DNA of 38,121 nt from a virus, in IMG/VR virus record IMGVR_UViG_3300025645_000182, positions 1 through 38,121 of that record; one strand, given 5' to 3'. Position numbers and translations under genes: made by a program. The notes beneath the pieces were generated by a model. That model made no database searches, was not told where the DNA came from, and saw only the letters and a list, made by a program, of their open reading frames with translations. Of the stretch, positions 29,374-34,087 are shown one piece after another. Every line of letters starts with the position of its first letter. The first letter of the stretch is position 1.

Positions 29374-29850
29374 TTATAATCCTCGGGTTAACGGTTCTTT
29401 GCCTAAGCGCATGTAGACCACGTGTTTGTCCATCGTAGTGCCTTTAGCGACTACGCCTATATAAATCTCAGTGTCCTGTTGTTTTGCACGGCGCTGGAAA
29501 ATCTTAAACGCGTTTAAAAACACAGGGCTATTAAAGGTAGTCGAATAGTGCGTATACCCTTTTTGCTGTAGGTAGTTAAAGTACTTGAACCCGTTCTTGA
29601 CAAAGTTTCGTCCAGTGTCCATATTGAACGCTCTACCTACTACTTTGTGTTGGTTCTCCCCCTTACCCACTTGCGCTAAGAATACTGTATTCCCTACCTG
29701 AACTATGTCTGTATTTGGGAGCGTTGTTTCCCCCGCTATAACTGCTAATACACTTTGCAAGGGTACCCCCATATCGGGCATATTGTGTACAGCACCGGTA
29801 ATAATTTCAGGGCCTTTTAGTAGCTTTTCATCACTATCTATGAGGTTCAT
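29374..29850 (-). CDS. 158-residue protein coupled to the ketoacyl synthase
   Basis: This protein begins MNLIDSDEKLLKGPEIITGA. The centre and end alternate strands and helices: VQVGNTVFLAQVG, then KVVGRAFNMDTGRNFVKNGF and KYFNYLQQKGYTHYSTTF, and EIYIGVVAKGTTMDKHVVYM. This order is loosely like a small GNAT-type acyltransferase, and T7 gp13 (a virion protein near the ejection genes) is also GNAT-like. The usual acetyl-CoA (Q/R)xxGxG/A motif is not evident, so it is not called as one. The start overlaps the ketoacyl-synthase stop (ATGA), and the end abuts the 2128-residue gene (TAA then ATG). It may use the ACP-KAS product or be an internal virion protein. Confidence 0.8.
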   Translation of the reverse strand: MNLIDSDEKLLKGPEIITGAVHNMPDMGVPLQSVLAVIAGETTLPNTDIVQVGNTVFLAQVGKGENQHKVVGRAFNMDTGRNFVKNGFKYFNYLQQKGYTHYSTTFNSPVFLNAFKIFQRRAKQQDTEIYIGVVAKGTTMDKHVVYMRLGKEPLTRGL

Positions 29851-30965
29851 GCGCTTACCTCCGGCGAAAACACGGCAGCGGAGTAGATGTTGCCCATACC
29901 GGCGGCGAGACTGAGCATTAGCCCTCCGGGAGCGGGGGCATCAGCAGACAGGAACACAGGGTCATCCTGCGTTCTGTTAAGGATTTTAGGCACATAGCCT
30001 TTTTTCAGGTCTTTTAATAACAATCCAGTCTCCAATAAGCCGCTCGCACCCATAGTATGCCCAATACGAGGTTTATACGATGTTGCAATAAACTCGTCTA
30101 AGCTATTCAATAGTGCCGATTTTTCCGCAGCATTGTTGACTGGAGTACCAGTTCCATGCGTCTTCACCAATCTTACTTCATTTTGGTGTGCTTTGGCTAC
30201 AAATAATGCACCTTCGATAGCTTTACTAAAACCCGATCCATCCGCTCTTTGTCCTAACGGGTTTGTGTTGTCCTCTGCGGAGGTGTAGGCCCCTAGAAAT
30301 TTAGCCATCGGCGTAGTCATTCCGGGGTGTTCCTTCTCAAATATAGCTAACGCCGCACCCTGCCCCAGAAAGAACCCTTGGTTTGTAGTGTCAAAAGCCG
30401 ACGGCTGTCGTTCGGTCTCGTCTTTATACTGTAGACTCGCTCCAGCTTCGCCAAAGAACCCTAGCGTCAGGTTGTTAACGGCATCTTCCCCAGTAAGCAC
30501 GATAACGCGGTCAAACCCGAAATTGTTCATCAGGTTCTGTACATCCATGAGGACTTTTAAGCTGGAAGCGCAGGCGCTAGCGTCTGTTGACACATGGTCA
30601 TGTACCCCGAACATACTGGCGATACGGCCAGCATATATGTTGGTTAGGACTATAAAGGGTACTTTTACTTTGTAATGCAGTTCAGCTTCAGGATTCTTGT
30701 CATACCGTCCGTTGTTACCCATCCAGCCTTGGTTACCCGCAGCGAATATAAACCCAGTCTTACCTTGCACGGGGTTGTCTCGTACGTAGCTAATGGTGTC
30801 TTCATCGACCAGACTTTCAAGAAGCGTATGGGGTGGGTACTTCATCCCGCTTTTAGCGCGTCTAAATGTCTCAGGGATTATATGCGCATGCTGAGGGTGT
30901 GGAATGTCCGCGATAAGCTTCGTTTCTGTAGTGCATACGGTATTGCATTTCGTGAGGTATATCAT
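29847..30965 (-). CDS. beta-ketoacyl-ACP synthase-like enzyme (thiolase fold)
   Basis: This is a 372-residue ketoacyl-synthase. Such enzymes condense an acyl group with a malonyl-ACP to extend fatty acid or polyketide chains. The full triad is present: Cys132 in STDASACASSLK, His270 in KTHGTGTP and His303 in KPRIGHTMGASG. FDTTNQGFFLGQGAALAIFE (191-210) matches the (P)FDxxRxGFxxGEGA motif with changes. The C-terminal GMGNIYSAAVF replaces the usual GFGGxN. It is shorter than FabF/FabB (about 410), and the N-terminal ~50 residues differ from the normal VVITG start. It is coupled to an ACP (ATGA) and to the next gene (ATGA). FabF-like, FabH-like and polyketide-type alternatives are open. Confidence 0.93.
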   Translation of the reverse strand: MIYLTKCNTVCTTETKLIADIPHPQHAHIIPETFRRAKSGMKYPPHTLLESLVDEDTISYVRDNPVQGKTGFIFAAGNQGWMGNNGRYDKNPEAELHYKVKVPFIVLTNIYAGRIASMFGVHDHVSTDASACASSLKVLMDVQNLMNNFGFDRVIVLTGEDAVNNLTLGFFGEAGASLQYKDETERQPSAFDTTNQGFFLGQGAALAIFEKEHPGMTTPMAKFLGAYTSAEDNTNPLGQRADGSGFSKAIEGALFVAKAHQNEVRLVKTHGTGTPVNNAAEKSALLNSLDEFIATSYKPRIGHTMGASGLLETGLLLKDLKKGYVPKILNRTQDDPVFLSADAPAPGGLMLSLAAGMGNIYSAAVFSPEVSA

Positions 30966-31279
30966 GATAAGTCCTTAACTAAGGCTTTAACATTGTCGTA
31001 TTCGCTCTCGGGGTCTTTAGTTTTGTACTCTTGCAAGAAGGTATTCAGCGCACCAATTGAGCTAATCGGCCAAAGCGCATCCATCTCCTCGCCTCCGGGA
31101 ATACCATAGGCTTCGCCTAGTACGAAGAAGATCAATGTGACATCTAGGCTGTCGAGGTTTGTCGCGTCTTCAGTTATAGGTACATCAAGGGATTCGGCCA
31201 CAATATAATCTGCCGTGACTGCTTTCTGCGCCGCTGATACGGCGTTGAATACTTCAAGGAAATCAAACGATTTAGTCAT
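30962..31279 (-). CDS. acyl carrier protein
   Basis: This 105-residue protein has the ACP core. An N-terminal helix (FNAVSAAQKAVTADYIVAES) precedes the phosphopantetheine site LDSLDVTLIFFVLGEAYGIP, with Ser44 in DSL. Helices III and IV follow around SSIGALNTFLQEY. The 105 residues compare with about 78 for bacterial AcpP. The extra ~20 residues (KDPESEYDNVKALVKDLS) lie at the C-terminus. It needs a host phosphopantetheinyl transferase, since none is in the window. It directly precedes the KAS gene and overlaps it by four bases (ATGA), so the two are made together. The SD AGGTG, seven bases before the ATG, lies within the hairpin at 31283-31337. It is not the host acpP locus, as phage structural genes lie on both sides. 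Confidence 0.9.
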   Translation of the reverse strand: MTKSFDFLEVFNAVSAAQKAVTADYIVAESLDVPITEDATNLDSLDVTLIFFVLGEAYGIPGGEEMDALWPISSIGALNTFLQEYKTKDPESEYDNVKALVKDLS

Positions 31280-31282
31280 GTT

Positions 31283-31337
31283 GTCGCACCTGCTAATAGG
31301 GGCTTTCTAGTATAAACAAAACATTAGCAGGTGCAAC
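31283..31337 (-). promoter_or_regulatory. long hairpin hiding the ACP ribosome-binding site
   Basis: On the minus strand GTTGCACCTGCTAAT (31337-31323) pairs with ATTAGCAGGTGCGAC (31297-31283): 14 Watson-Crick pairs and one U-G wobble, with a 25-base loop. Twelve consecutive pairs are perfect. The 3' arm contains AGGTG (31291-31287), seven bases before the ACP ATG, and ends three bases from it. Folding would block translation of ACP and, through coupling, of the KAS. There is no U-run, so a terminator is unlikely. Confidence 0.8.
31309..31336 (-). promoter_or_regulatory. candidate promoter inside the hairpin loop
   Basis: On the minus strand TATACT (31314-31309) matches TATAAT at five of six positions. 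A weak TTGCAC (31336-31331, three of six matches to TTGACA) lies 16 bases upstream, in the 5' arm. Transcription would start near 31300-31303, inside the loop, so this RNA would lack the 5' arm and its ribosome-binding site would be open. This is a prediction from sequence alone. Confidence 0.35.
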
Positions 31338-31349
31338 TTTGCGCCATAC

Positions 31350-32231
31350 CTAGTTAGCGATTAAAATACCTTGAAAGGACGCACTTACTTCGACGTTGCT
31401 AGTATCCGAAAATGCCCGGCACTCTACATCTGTTTTTTCTGGTATAGCGAGGGGGTACGGAAACGACGTTACTAGTTCGTTACTCTGCAATGTTCTGATT
31501 TCCCCCGTAGTAAACGTGTTGGAACCAAATTTTCGAAGTACGAACTTGGCGGTCACGTTTTTAGACTGTATACCCAATGCAGCGGTAAAACTAATGTCGT
31601 CTAAGTACAACGTGTACCCAGCGGGGACAGTGTATGCCGCCATCTGAGTCTGGTTGCCCACCGCTAGATCTGCATAGGTCACAGTTGCTGCTTGGTTTTG
31701 GATACTCACAGTGCCTGCGGCAGTGCCACCGGTACCTGATAGCGTGACGTACGCCCGGTTAATACGTATCCACGTACCTGATATAGCTACAGCGGACGTA
31801 CCGTTAAGCGTTACAGAGACAGACTTAATATTGTAATCAGCATCAAGCCCTTCGACCTGTACGGTCTGTGCACCTGTATTAGTAACACCGTTATCTGCGG
31901 TGTTACTACTAACTATATAGGCAGTAAACGCCGCTGTAGGCCATGGTACATTGCCCCCAGAGGACCAGATAGTTTCTTCAACCCCGTTAATATCAGAGTT
32001 AAATCCAAATTTATACAGTGTGGAGGCCCCGGCGACTTGCCCTTGGGATACTCGGAGGCTGTAGGGTACTTGACATGCCATGGCGTTTCTCAATGCGTTG
32101 TCGAGCTGGTTAAAGTATATACGCAGCACTTTGTTAAACTCTTCGAACGACCTCGCGTCGTACGCTTGTGGTGGGTATGGTAGCGCCGGGGCACGAAACG
32201 GGACATCGTACTGCGTGTTATCTATCGCCAT
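31350..32231 (-). CDS. phage structural protein, tail/neck-associated
   Basis: This 293-residue protein begins MAIDNTQYDVPFRAPALPYP. The ATG at 32231 is preferred because it overlaps the stop of the upstream gene (TAATG). A longer form from 32282 would run 17 codons into that gene. The N-terminal ~60 residues (FEEFNKVLRIYFNQLDNALR) are a helical hook. The rest is a Thr/Ser/Gly/Ala-rich beta domain (VQVEGLDADYNIKSVSVTLN, then VPAGYTLYLDDISF), typical of virion surface or neck proteins. I do not recognise the family. It follows the gp10-like protein, so tail or neck attachment is the natural guess. Coupling to the ACP gene is broken by the 70-base gap carrying the hairpin. Confidence 0.75.
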   Translation of the reverse strand: MAIDNTQYDVPFRAPALPYPPQAYDARSFEEFNKVLRIYFNQLDNALRNAMACQVPYSLRVSQGQVAGASTLYKFGFNSDINGVEETIWSSGGNVPWPTAAFTAYIVSSNTADNGVTNTGAQTVQVEGLDADYNIKSVSVTLNGTSAVAISGTWIRINRAYVTLSGTGGTAAGTVSIQNQAATVTYADLAVGNQTQMAAYTVPAGYTLYLDDISFTAALGIQSKNVTAKFVLRKFGSNTFTTGEIRTLQSNELVTSFPYPLAIPEKTDVECRAFSDTSNVEVSASFQGILIAN

Positions 32232-34087
32232 TACCGTCTCCCATCCGGTCGCATATCTATGCGAGGTGTGCCGAACTGCCATGTAACGCCCAGCCCAGTA
32301 GACTCGATCTTGACTGCAAGCTGCCTACCACGTACACGCGTGTTCAACTGCCCTGTGTACTGTTCTATCGGTAACACAGTACTACGTGTTACGGTGCCAG
32401 AACTACTACCCCCCTGCGATAGCGGGTCGTTATACCCTGATCCTGAGTTCGCTAACGGGAGCAAAGTCATGGTAGCTGCGGGAGCCGCCGCCGTAGAACC
32501 TACGAACGTAACGTCGGGCAGTATACGCCATACAAAGGAAAACTGGTGCCCATCACCCAAGTCAAACTGCGATGAGGATATTGACGCTGCAATTGGTAGC
32601 GTAGTAGCCGTTTCGTTATCGTCGGTTCCTGACTCGTGGTTAACCAGATTACTACTATAGGTAGCAGCAAGCGGGAAGGACCGCAATCCAGAATCTAGCC
32701 ACGCTGTACGAGACATAGTGCCATAATACCATGTATTTTCCATGTAGTTGTATACTACATACTTACCAATATCGGTCTGGTTTGTGGCACAGTAGAACCA
32801 CCAAACCTCGTGGAAAGACTCGTTAGTACCGGCAAATACTTGGTCGTACTGCTGAATGTTAAAGTCAGAGAATATATGTCTACGCAAGTCACAAGGTAGT
32901 GGTTGGGTACGCCCATCGTACTTGTAGAACTTATCTTTACCCATCCAATAAGCAACACCGTTGGCATAGGCTACAGCGTTCTGGCTCGCTATGGATATGT
33001 TCTCTCCTACTAATTGTGCGCCCCAAACAACAGGTGCTCCTACGTACTGTAAGGAGTATACGGCAGAATCAGTCCAAACAAGGATCTCTTGGCGCGACTG
33101 TTTGGCGGCCACGATCATCGTGCCCCGCGATAAAACTATACTACCTGCTTGGTTTGTCGCTGCGGGGGTCCAGTTTGTAGGATCTTCTTGGTCCGACCAG
33201 CGCACAAGCATTGGGTTTATGGTAGCAGAAGAAATCTCATTCGCCCCAAAAGCGAACACAAACCGACTAATGTCAGAAATCTCAATCATGTTCTGGGCTA
33301 CCGGAACATCAGAACCTGTTAGAAGCGTCGCGCGAGATCCTGTACCTGCCGTCGCGTCCCAATAATACATGGCACCACCACGAGGGCCAAAGATTAGATC
33401 CTCACCAAAGTTAGCTTGGCTCCACAGGCGGATACTCTCTGTTGATACCAGTCCCGTACCCCAAACGCCGCCGCCCCAAGTACCCGCGCCCCAACCAGAA
33501 AGTGGGATTGCGTATGCAGCACCGACATGGATTTGGTACGCGCCTACTGTTGAACTCCCACCGTTGCCTACGTCAGACCCGTTCGCAGTAGCTACCGCTA
33601 CTATTGTGTAGCTGCTGGAGTCGATTAGCGCATCAACTTGATATTCTTGGTTGAGCACATCTGCGGTAATGTTACCCCCGAGAGACACTGCGCCACTGAA
33701 AGTAACAAAATCTCCTGCGGTAGCTCCATGTCCAACATCGGATATAGTCAGTACCGCGCTACCATTTGTAGCCGCAAAGGTTACATCCCCCGCAGCGGTA
33801 GTGGCGCGTAGCGGTGTAATGTCGTTGTAGCCGCCGCCCTCTTCTAAGTAAAACTTTAGGTTGGTACCCACACCGAGTAAGTTAATGCTACCTAACGTAA
33901 CCCAATTCCACAAAGACCGACATACGCCTAGGTAGGTAGTGCTCGATATACGCTCCCAACCACCAATTTTCTCTGGTAAGCCTTGACGAAACCGAACTTT
34001 GTCACATTCATACCAACCACCTTCGTTGGAGTAGCTGGTACGTTCCCGGTTTACACCGGGTTTAAATAGTATCTTTTGAAGAGGCAT
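32231..34087 (-). CDS. P22 gp10-like packaged-DNA stabilisation protein
   Basis: This 618-residue protein begins MPLQKILFKPGVNRERTSYS, then NEGGWYECDKVRFRQGLPEKIGGWER. This N-terminus is shared by podovirus stabilisation proteins of the P22 gp10 type, which plug the portal-tail channel after packaging. The body is beta-rich, with a Gly/Trp stretch (WGAGTWGGGVWGTG) and a propeller-like WSDQEDPTNWTP...VLSRG region. There is no signal peptide or coiled coil. AGGTG lies upstream of the ATG. It marks the virus as podovirus-like, although the tail family cannot be proven without portal and terminase genes. Confidence 0.75.
   Translation of the reverse strand: MPLQKILFKPGVNRERTSYSNEGGWYECDKVRFRQGLPEKIGGWERISSTTYLGVCRSLWNWVTLGSINLLGVGTNLKFYLEEGGGYNDITPLRATTAAGDVTFAATNGSAVLTISDVGHGATAGDFVTFSGAVSLGGNITADVLNQEYQVDALIDSSSYTIVAVATANGSDVGNGGSSTVGAYQIHVGAAYAIPLSGWGAGTWGGGVWGTGLVSTESIRLWSQANFGEDLIFGPRGGAMYYWDATAGTGSRATLLTGSDVPVAQNMIEISDISRFVFAFGANEISSATINPMLVRWSDQEDPTNWTPAATNQAGSIVLSRGTMIVAAKQSRQEILVWTDSAVYSLQYVGAPVVWGAQLVGENISIASQNAVAYANGVAYWMGKDKFYKYDGRTQPLPCDLRRHIFSDFNIQQYDQVFAGTNESFHEVWWFYCATNQTDIGKYVVYNYMENTWYYGTMSRTAWLDSGLRSFPLAATYSSNLVNHESGTDDNETATTLPIAASISSSQFDLGDGHQFSFVWRILPDVTFVGSTAAAPAATMTLLPLANSGSGYNDPLSQGGSSSGTVTRSTVLPIEQYTGQLNTRVRGRQLAVKIESTGLGVTWQFGTPRIDMRPDGRR

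Follow-up and report, generated by a model that had tools for sequence, protein, structure and literature searches.

A hairpin over the Shine–Dalgarno sequence of a phage acyl carrier protein gene and a promoter-like motif in its loop

In the long upstream transcripts of the phage T4 genes e (lysozyme) and soc, a helix hides the Shine–Dalgarno sequence (SD), and in the case of gene e short transcripts that lack the 5' part of this helix arise from late promoters a short distance upstream (PMC3014915). A hairpin also hides the ribosome-binding site (RBS) of T4 I-TevI, I-TevII, I-TevIII and segB and of Aeh1 mobE in RNA made from upstream promoters, and a promoter immediately upstream of I-TevI produces RNA without the 5' part of the hairpin (PMC2988022).

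A comparable arrangement was found at the start of an acyl carrier protein (ACP) gene in the window, i.e., the whole 38,121-nt stretch of viral DNA analyzed here. The ACP element resembles T4 e, soc and I-TevI in that the SD would be hidden in long upstream RNA, and T4 e and I-TevI in that a nearby promoter would give RNA without the 5' part. The initial annotation had ascribed the gene e design to this locus; a promoter with its start in the loop was supported and the hiding of the SD in long RNA moderately so, whereas the promoter itself appeared to be sigma-70-like and not of the T4 late type. The T4 late promoter motif (TATAAATA, with no -35 box) was rejected, as the element reads TTGCAC-16-TATACT. 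In T4 gene e a late promoter is combined with the block of early RNA, whereas the ACP element has a sigma-70-like promoter with its -35 box in the 5' arm, and the read-through RNA is early RNA in T4 but virion-operon RNA here. The T4 lock was shown by experiment, whereas the ACP lock is supported by comparison only. The I-Tev, segB and mobE genes encode homing endonucleases of T4-like phages, in contrast to the fatty-acid carrier gene of an unrelated phage group described here. No published account of the ACP hairpin element or of phage ACP together with beta-ketoacyl-ACP synthase (KAS) was found in the open literature.

Single-sequence scans of the 105-aa ACP product gave no match in Pfam, PHROGs or NCBIfam. 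The profile of the ACP family, in contrast, matched solved (PDB) acyl carrier proteins with E-values down to 6e-6, and D43, S44 and L45 were invariant in the alignment of 30 relatives. The AlphaFold model of the product had a pLDDT of 93, and ACPs were among its best Foldseek matches, with probabilities up to 0.99 yet E-values of 0.07 or worse. Judging by the family profile and the modeled helical fold, and with the DSL serine present, the product is an ACP, and it is recognizable as such solely through family profile or fold and not through single-sequence family scans. The next gene encodes KAS. Both genes belong to the virion operon, where a stabilization-protein homologue and a swapped gene precede them (Table 1).

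On the minus strand the element consists of GTTGCACCTGCTAAT, a 25-nt loop gttttgttTATACTagaaagcccct (31322 to 31298), ATTAGCAGGTGCGAC, AAC and the ATG of the ACP gene. The inverted-repeat search returned two arms of 15 nt, 93% complementary and separated by 25 nt. The single DNA mismatch corresponds to a U–G wobble in the minus-strand RNA, so all 15 stem positions pair. The predicted fold of the 89-nt hairpin region had an energy of -29.3 kcal/mol (z = -4.0), which none of 200 shuffles equaled. Only one perfect 12-nt inverted repeat with a loop of 3–60 nt was present in the window, namely the ACP hairpin, against 0.15 per window expected by chance in a dinucleotide-matched simulation. The SD (AGGTG) sits within the 3' arm, 7 nt 5' of the ATG at 31279, and TATACT (31314-31309) falls within the loop. 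The hairpin over the SD of the ACP gene was thus confirmed, and with it the 15-bp stem (31283-31297/31323-31337) and the TATACT in its loop that had been proposed initially. In Rfam the element gave only chance matches, far below the gathering score. The exact repeat was found in viral contigs only in two records of near-identical phages, so the exact stem is not a family trait.

Table 1. Features of the ACP locus in the window.
Feature	Coordinates	Strand	Basis or remark
Acyl carrier protein gene, 105 aa, invariant DSL motif	30962..31279	(-)	alignment, profile, fold
Beta-ketoacyl-ACP synthase (KAS) gene, 372 aa	29847..30965	(-)	ATGA overlap with the ACP stop
Upstream virion-operon gene, swapped cassette	31350..32282	(-)	ends 12 nt before the 5' arm
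5' arm of hairpin, GTTGCACCTGCTAAT	31323..31337	(-)	inverted-repeat search, sequence, fold
3' arm of hairpin, ATTAGCAGGTGCGAC	31283..31297	(-)	inverted-repeat search, sequence, fold
Shine–Dalgarno AGGTG	31287..31291	(-)	predicted to be fully paired in upstream-made RNA
-35-like TTGCAC in the 5' arm	31331..31336	(-)	16 nt before the -10; sequence and alignment
-10-like TATACT in the hairpin loop	31309..31314	(-)	sequence and relatives
Predicted transcription start, 31302 +/- 2	31300..31304	(-)	inferred from spacing; 7 nt after the -10
Conserved CCCT at the predicted RNA 5' end	31298..31301	(-)	can pair with SD AGG, 3 bp

Searches with KAS and ACP yielded about 190 related phage loci, which were divided into a near clade (KAS identity of about 62% or more) and a far clade (50–57%). 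The near-clade promoter regions were aligned on a conserved CCC, and 126 of 131 loci fitted the search pattern; since CCC belonged to that pattern, its conservation is not evidence in itself. In 66 distinct near-clade sequences the hexamer at -12 to -7 read T59 A57 T49 A52 N T60 (counts out of 66); 51 of them had G at -2, and CCC was followed by T in all 66. An A occupied the predicted start in 56 of the 66 relatives, and this phage has C at that place. The TATAnT-like hexamer kept a fixed spacing to the conserved ACCCT in these 66 upstream sequences. Its positions 1, 2 and 6 were conserved, as in a sigma-70 -10 element, and the C/A/G variation at the fifth position fits what a -10 element would show. 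When upstream regions were delimited by sequence difference into 15 groups, nine of them had at least 5/6 matches to TATAAT at the -10 place; the shuffles gave a mean of 0.6 groups and a maximum of 5 in 2000. TTG was invariant in 21 of 21 aligned nearer relatives, 16 nt before the -10 (the spacer being counted from the hexamer TTGNNN), and TTGCAC forms bases 2–7 of the hairpin 5' arm in this phage. The -35 box is weak, with 3/6 matches, the generic promoter scan did not list the promoter, and some distant near-clade members have no good -10. Of 12 relatives' records, 10 carried the motif TATANT-N5-7-ACCCT at the ACP site, and in other places it turned up only twice; being nearly confined to this site, it was ruled out as a general phage promoter motif. 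The window itself has only loose further copies of the TATA-CCCT motif, and these fall within coding sequence. Altogether, the alignments strongly support the conserved motif as a dedicated promoter of ACP. RNA from this predicted promoter would lack the 5' arm of the hairpin, and the start in the loop proposed at 31300-31303 agrees with the position predicted here, with the -10-like hexamer conserved at fixed spacing. The CCCT was invariant in the 66 relatives and can pair with the SD AGG (31289-31291).

Masking of the SD was expressed as the predicted energy needed to free it in the long RNA and in the RNA from the predicted start. In this phage the SD is predicted to be paired in upstream-made RNA and open in the short RNA, the cost being 16.0 and 2.7 kcal/mol, respectively. 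The 66 relatives had means of 6.3 in the long and 3.0 in the own-start RNA, and the long RNA was higher in 62 of them. A longer RNA always pairs more; therefore, such differences needed controls. By opening cost the ACP SD of this phage ranked first of 96 SD starts, a set that contains a few ACP starts, which makes the test harder to pass. ACP groups had a mean cost of 6.3 compared to 3.9 for other genes of the same phages (P = 2e-4). The ACP SD also cost more to open than the KAS SD of the same loci (P = 0.018), and near-clade ACP more than ACP of the far relatives (P = 5e-4). Each of the 15 groups was compared with 30 shuffles and with 30 upstream arms swapped in from other groups; its own arms masked better than the shuffled (P = 0.003) and the swapped ones (P = 0.006), by approximately 1 standard deviation. 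The energies are predictions, the groups share ancestry, and related sequences inflate the shuffle tests.

The signs of covariation in the stem were mixed. When 21 relatives were aligned, 7 of the 15 stem pairs showed two-sided changes, among them U–A to A–U in the middle of the stem, in comparison to 3.5 in shuffles (none of 500 as high), and the count fell when the stem was slid along the alignment. RNAalifold, however, gave no consensus stem for these 21 relatives beyond 3 bp of CCU/AGG, and masking was not above chance in at least eight relatives (L102, L103, L101, L013, L025, L026, L045 and L076). Outside this phage, the 15-bp stem is found in its exact form only in near-identical records, and L003 has two mismatched pairs. 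L057 and L060 appear to mask the SD via the same arm position, L011 via a shifted register, and L052 and L056 via TACGTACC/GGTGCGTA, whereas many other groups appear to use GCACC/GGTGC with the 5' side straddling the predicted start. The use of differing arms suggests that masking, and not one stem, is kept, and the family seems to keep it loosely. Selection for SD masking in upstream-made RNA is moderately supported by these comparisons as a significant but weaker and non-universal family tendency, and the initial claim that the stem masks the RBS of ACP is supported to the same moderate extent.

The two clades differ in the arrangement of the locus. In the near clade ACP and the upstream gene are 28–122 nt apart, save for one case in the ORF count, whereas in the far clade most ACP starts fall within -4 to +2 of the preceding stop (overlap or abutment). 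The far clade (L086, L089, L107-L177) had neither the promoter-like motif nor the SD lock. The near-clade phages thus appear, from this distribution, to have gained separate control of ACP. Identity between L003 and the window was 98.3% above 32227 and 92.4% below 31363, and the gene in between differed. The upstream neighbor of the hairpin (31363-32227) is therefore a swapped cassette, replaced relative to L003, and in many relatives only the first ~70 residues of the upstream gene are recognizably shared. The swap junction lies 26 nt before the 5' arm, which implies that promoter and lock travel with ACP. A second inverted repeat, of 14 nt with a 7-nt loop, lies inside the upstream gene at 31877-31911.

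We lean towards the reading in which the 55 bp form a promoter folded into a translational lock on ACP. The 5' arm and loop DNA would act as a sigma-70-like promoter (TTGCAC, 16 nt, TATACT), bases of the -35 box being part of the arm that faces the SD region in the stem. RNA would start near 31302, just before the 3' arm, and its leader of about 23 nt would leave the SD free for ACP translation. Read-through RNA from the upstream virion genes would carry the 5' arm, which would pair with the SD and block initiation. In effect ACP, together with KAS to the extent of its coupling, would have a promoter of its own and be shielded from virion-operon transcription. The hairpin, the conserved motif and the predicted loss of SD access are shown, whereas we infer the RNA start in the loop, the block in vivo and the timing of each RNA during infection. 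The initial annotation proposed that the element would give the ACP–KAS set its own timing, with T4 gene e as the model, but the direction may be the opposite. Since the promoter appears to be of host type and virion genes are the source of the read-through, the block seems at least as likely to fall on late read-through, the reverse of T4, as on early read-through. It is possible, albeit doubtful, that the T4 lock is inverted, with early or steady ACP expression from the host-type promoter and a hairpin that silences ACP on abundant late virion transcripts and holds it at a low and separate level.

Rather unlikely, in our view, is the alternative that only the promoter matters, with promoter and short leader conserved and the stem a by-product. 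In that case the match between TTGC of the -35 and GCGA beside the SD would be fortuitous, and the long stem of this phage would represent drift. Such a view would account for promoter columns far more conserved than the stem, for the lack of a family stem in RNAalifold and for the relatives without masking. It fits poorly with a perfect 12-nt repeat so rare by chance, with the better masking by matched than by swapped arms, with the excess of two-sided changes and with the different arms by which different groups achieve masking.

The hairpin could instead be a coupling gate, melted by ribosomes finishing the upstream gene and so enabling ACP translation. In many relatives 29–31 nt lie between the upstream stop and the ACP start, a distance at which a ribosome ending translation would sit over the 5' side of the local hairpin, and the far relatives have coupled ACP starts. 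Here, however, the stop precedes the 5' arm by 12 nt, and in L003 it lies 93 nt before the ACP start, so a ribosome of the usual footprint should not reach the stem; as the conserved promoter is also left unexplained, we consider coupling improbable. A DNA operator, at which a repressor dimer or looped tetramer would bind the repeat over the promoter, is very improbable: the repeat does extend over the -35 and the start region and its half sites are 40 bp apart (center to center), but the sequence of the half sites is kept only among near-identical relatives, no repressor gene was seen nearby, and the U–G pair is no match in DNA. A stable stem directly after a stop codon might also be an RNase III site, an mRNA stabilizer or a terminator. 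A T run follows neither arm and the scan listed no terminator there, and a terminator was rejected on this ground; the position of the -10 and the start and the SD pairing in relatives would also go unexplained, and processing or 3'-end roles in general are extremely improbable.

If the promoter–lock reading is true, an unrelated phage group that has been widely sampled conceals a gene start in read-through RNA as T4 does, and does so for a fatty-acid gene rather than lysis or homing. The element would then be a compact natural part, in which one stretch is the -35 box, the spacer and the anti-SD. It would also suggest that phage ACP–KAS has to be made at another time or level than the surrounding virion genes, a clue to the function of these genes.

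The KAS gene carries an SD of its own that is about as accessible as usual (4.0 kcal/mol), and its translation may or may not be coupled to that of ACP; control by the hairpin and promoter may extend to it. The genes beyond KAS likewise start at overlaps or abutments with good SDs and may escape the lock. The 158-aa gene that follows KAS (29374-29850) has an ATGA overlap with it and no family match, and may be a third member of the ACP–KAS set.
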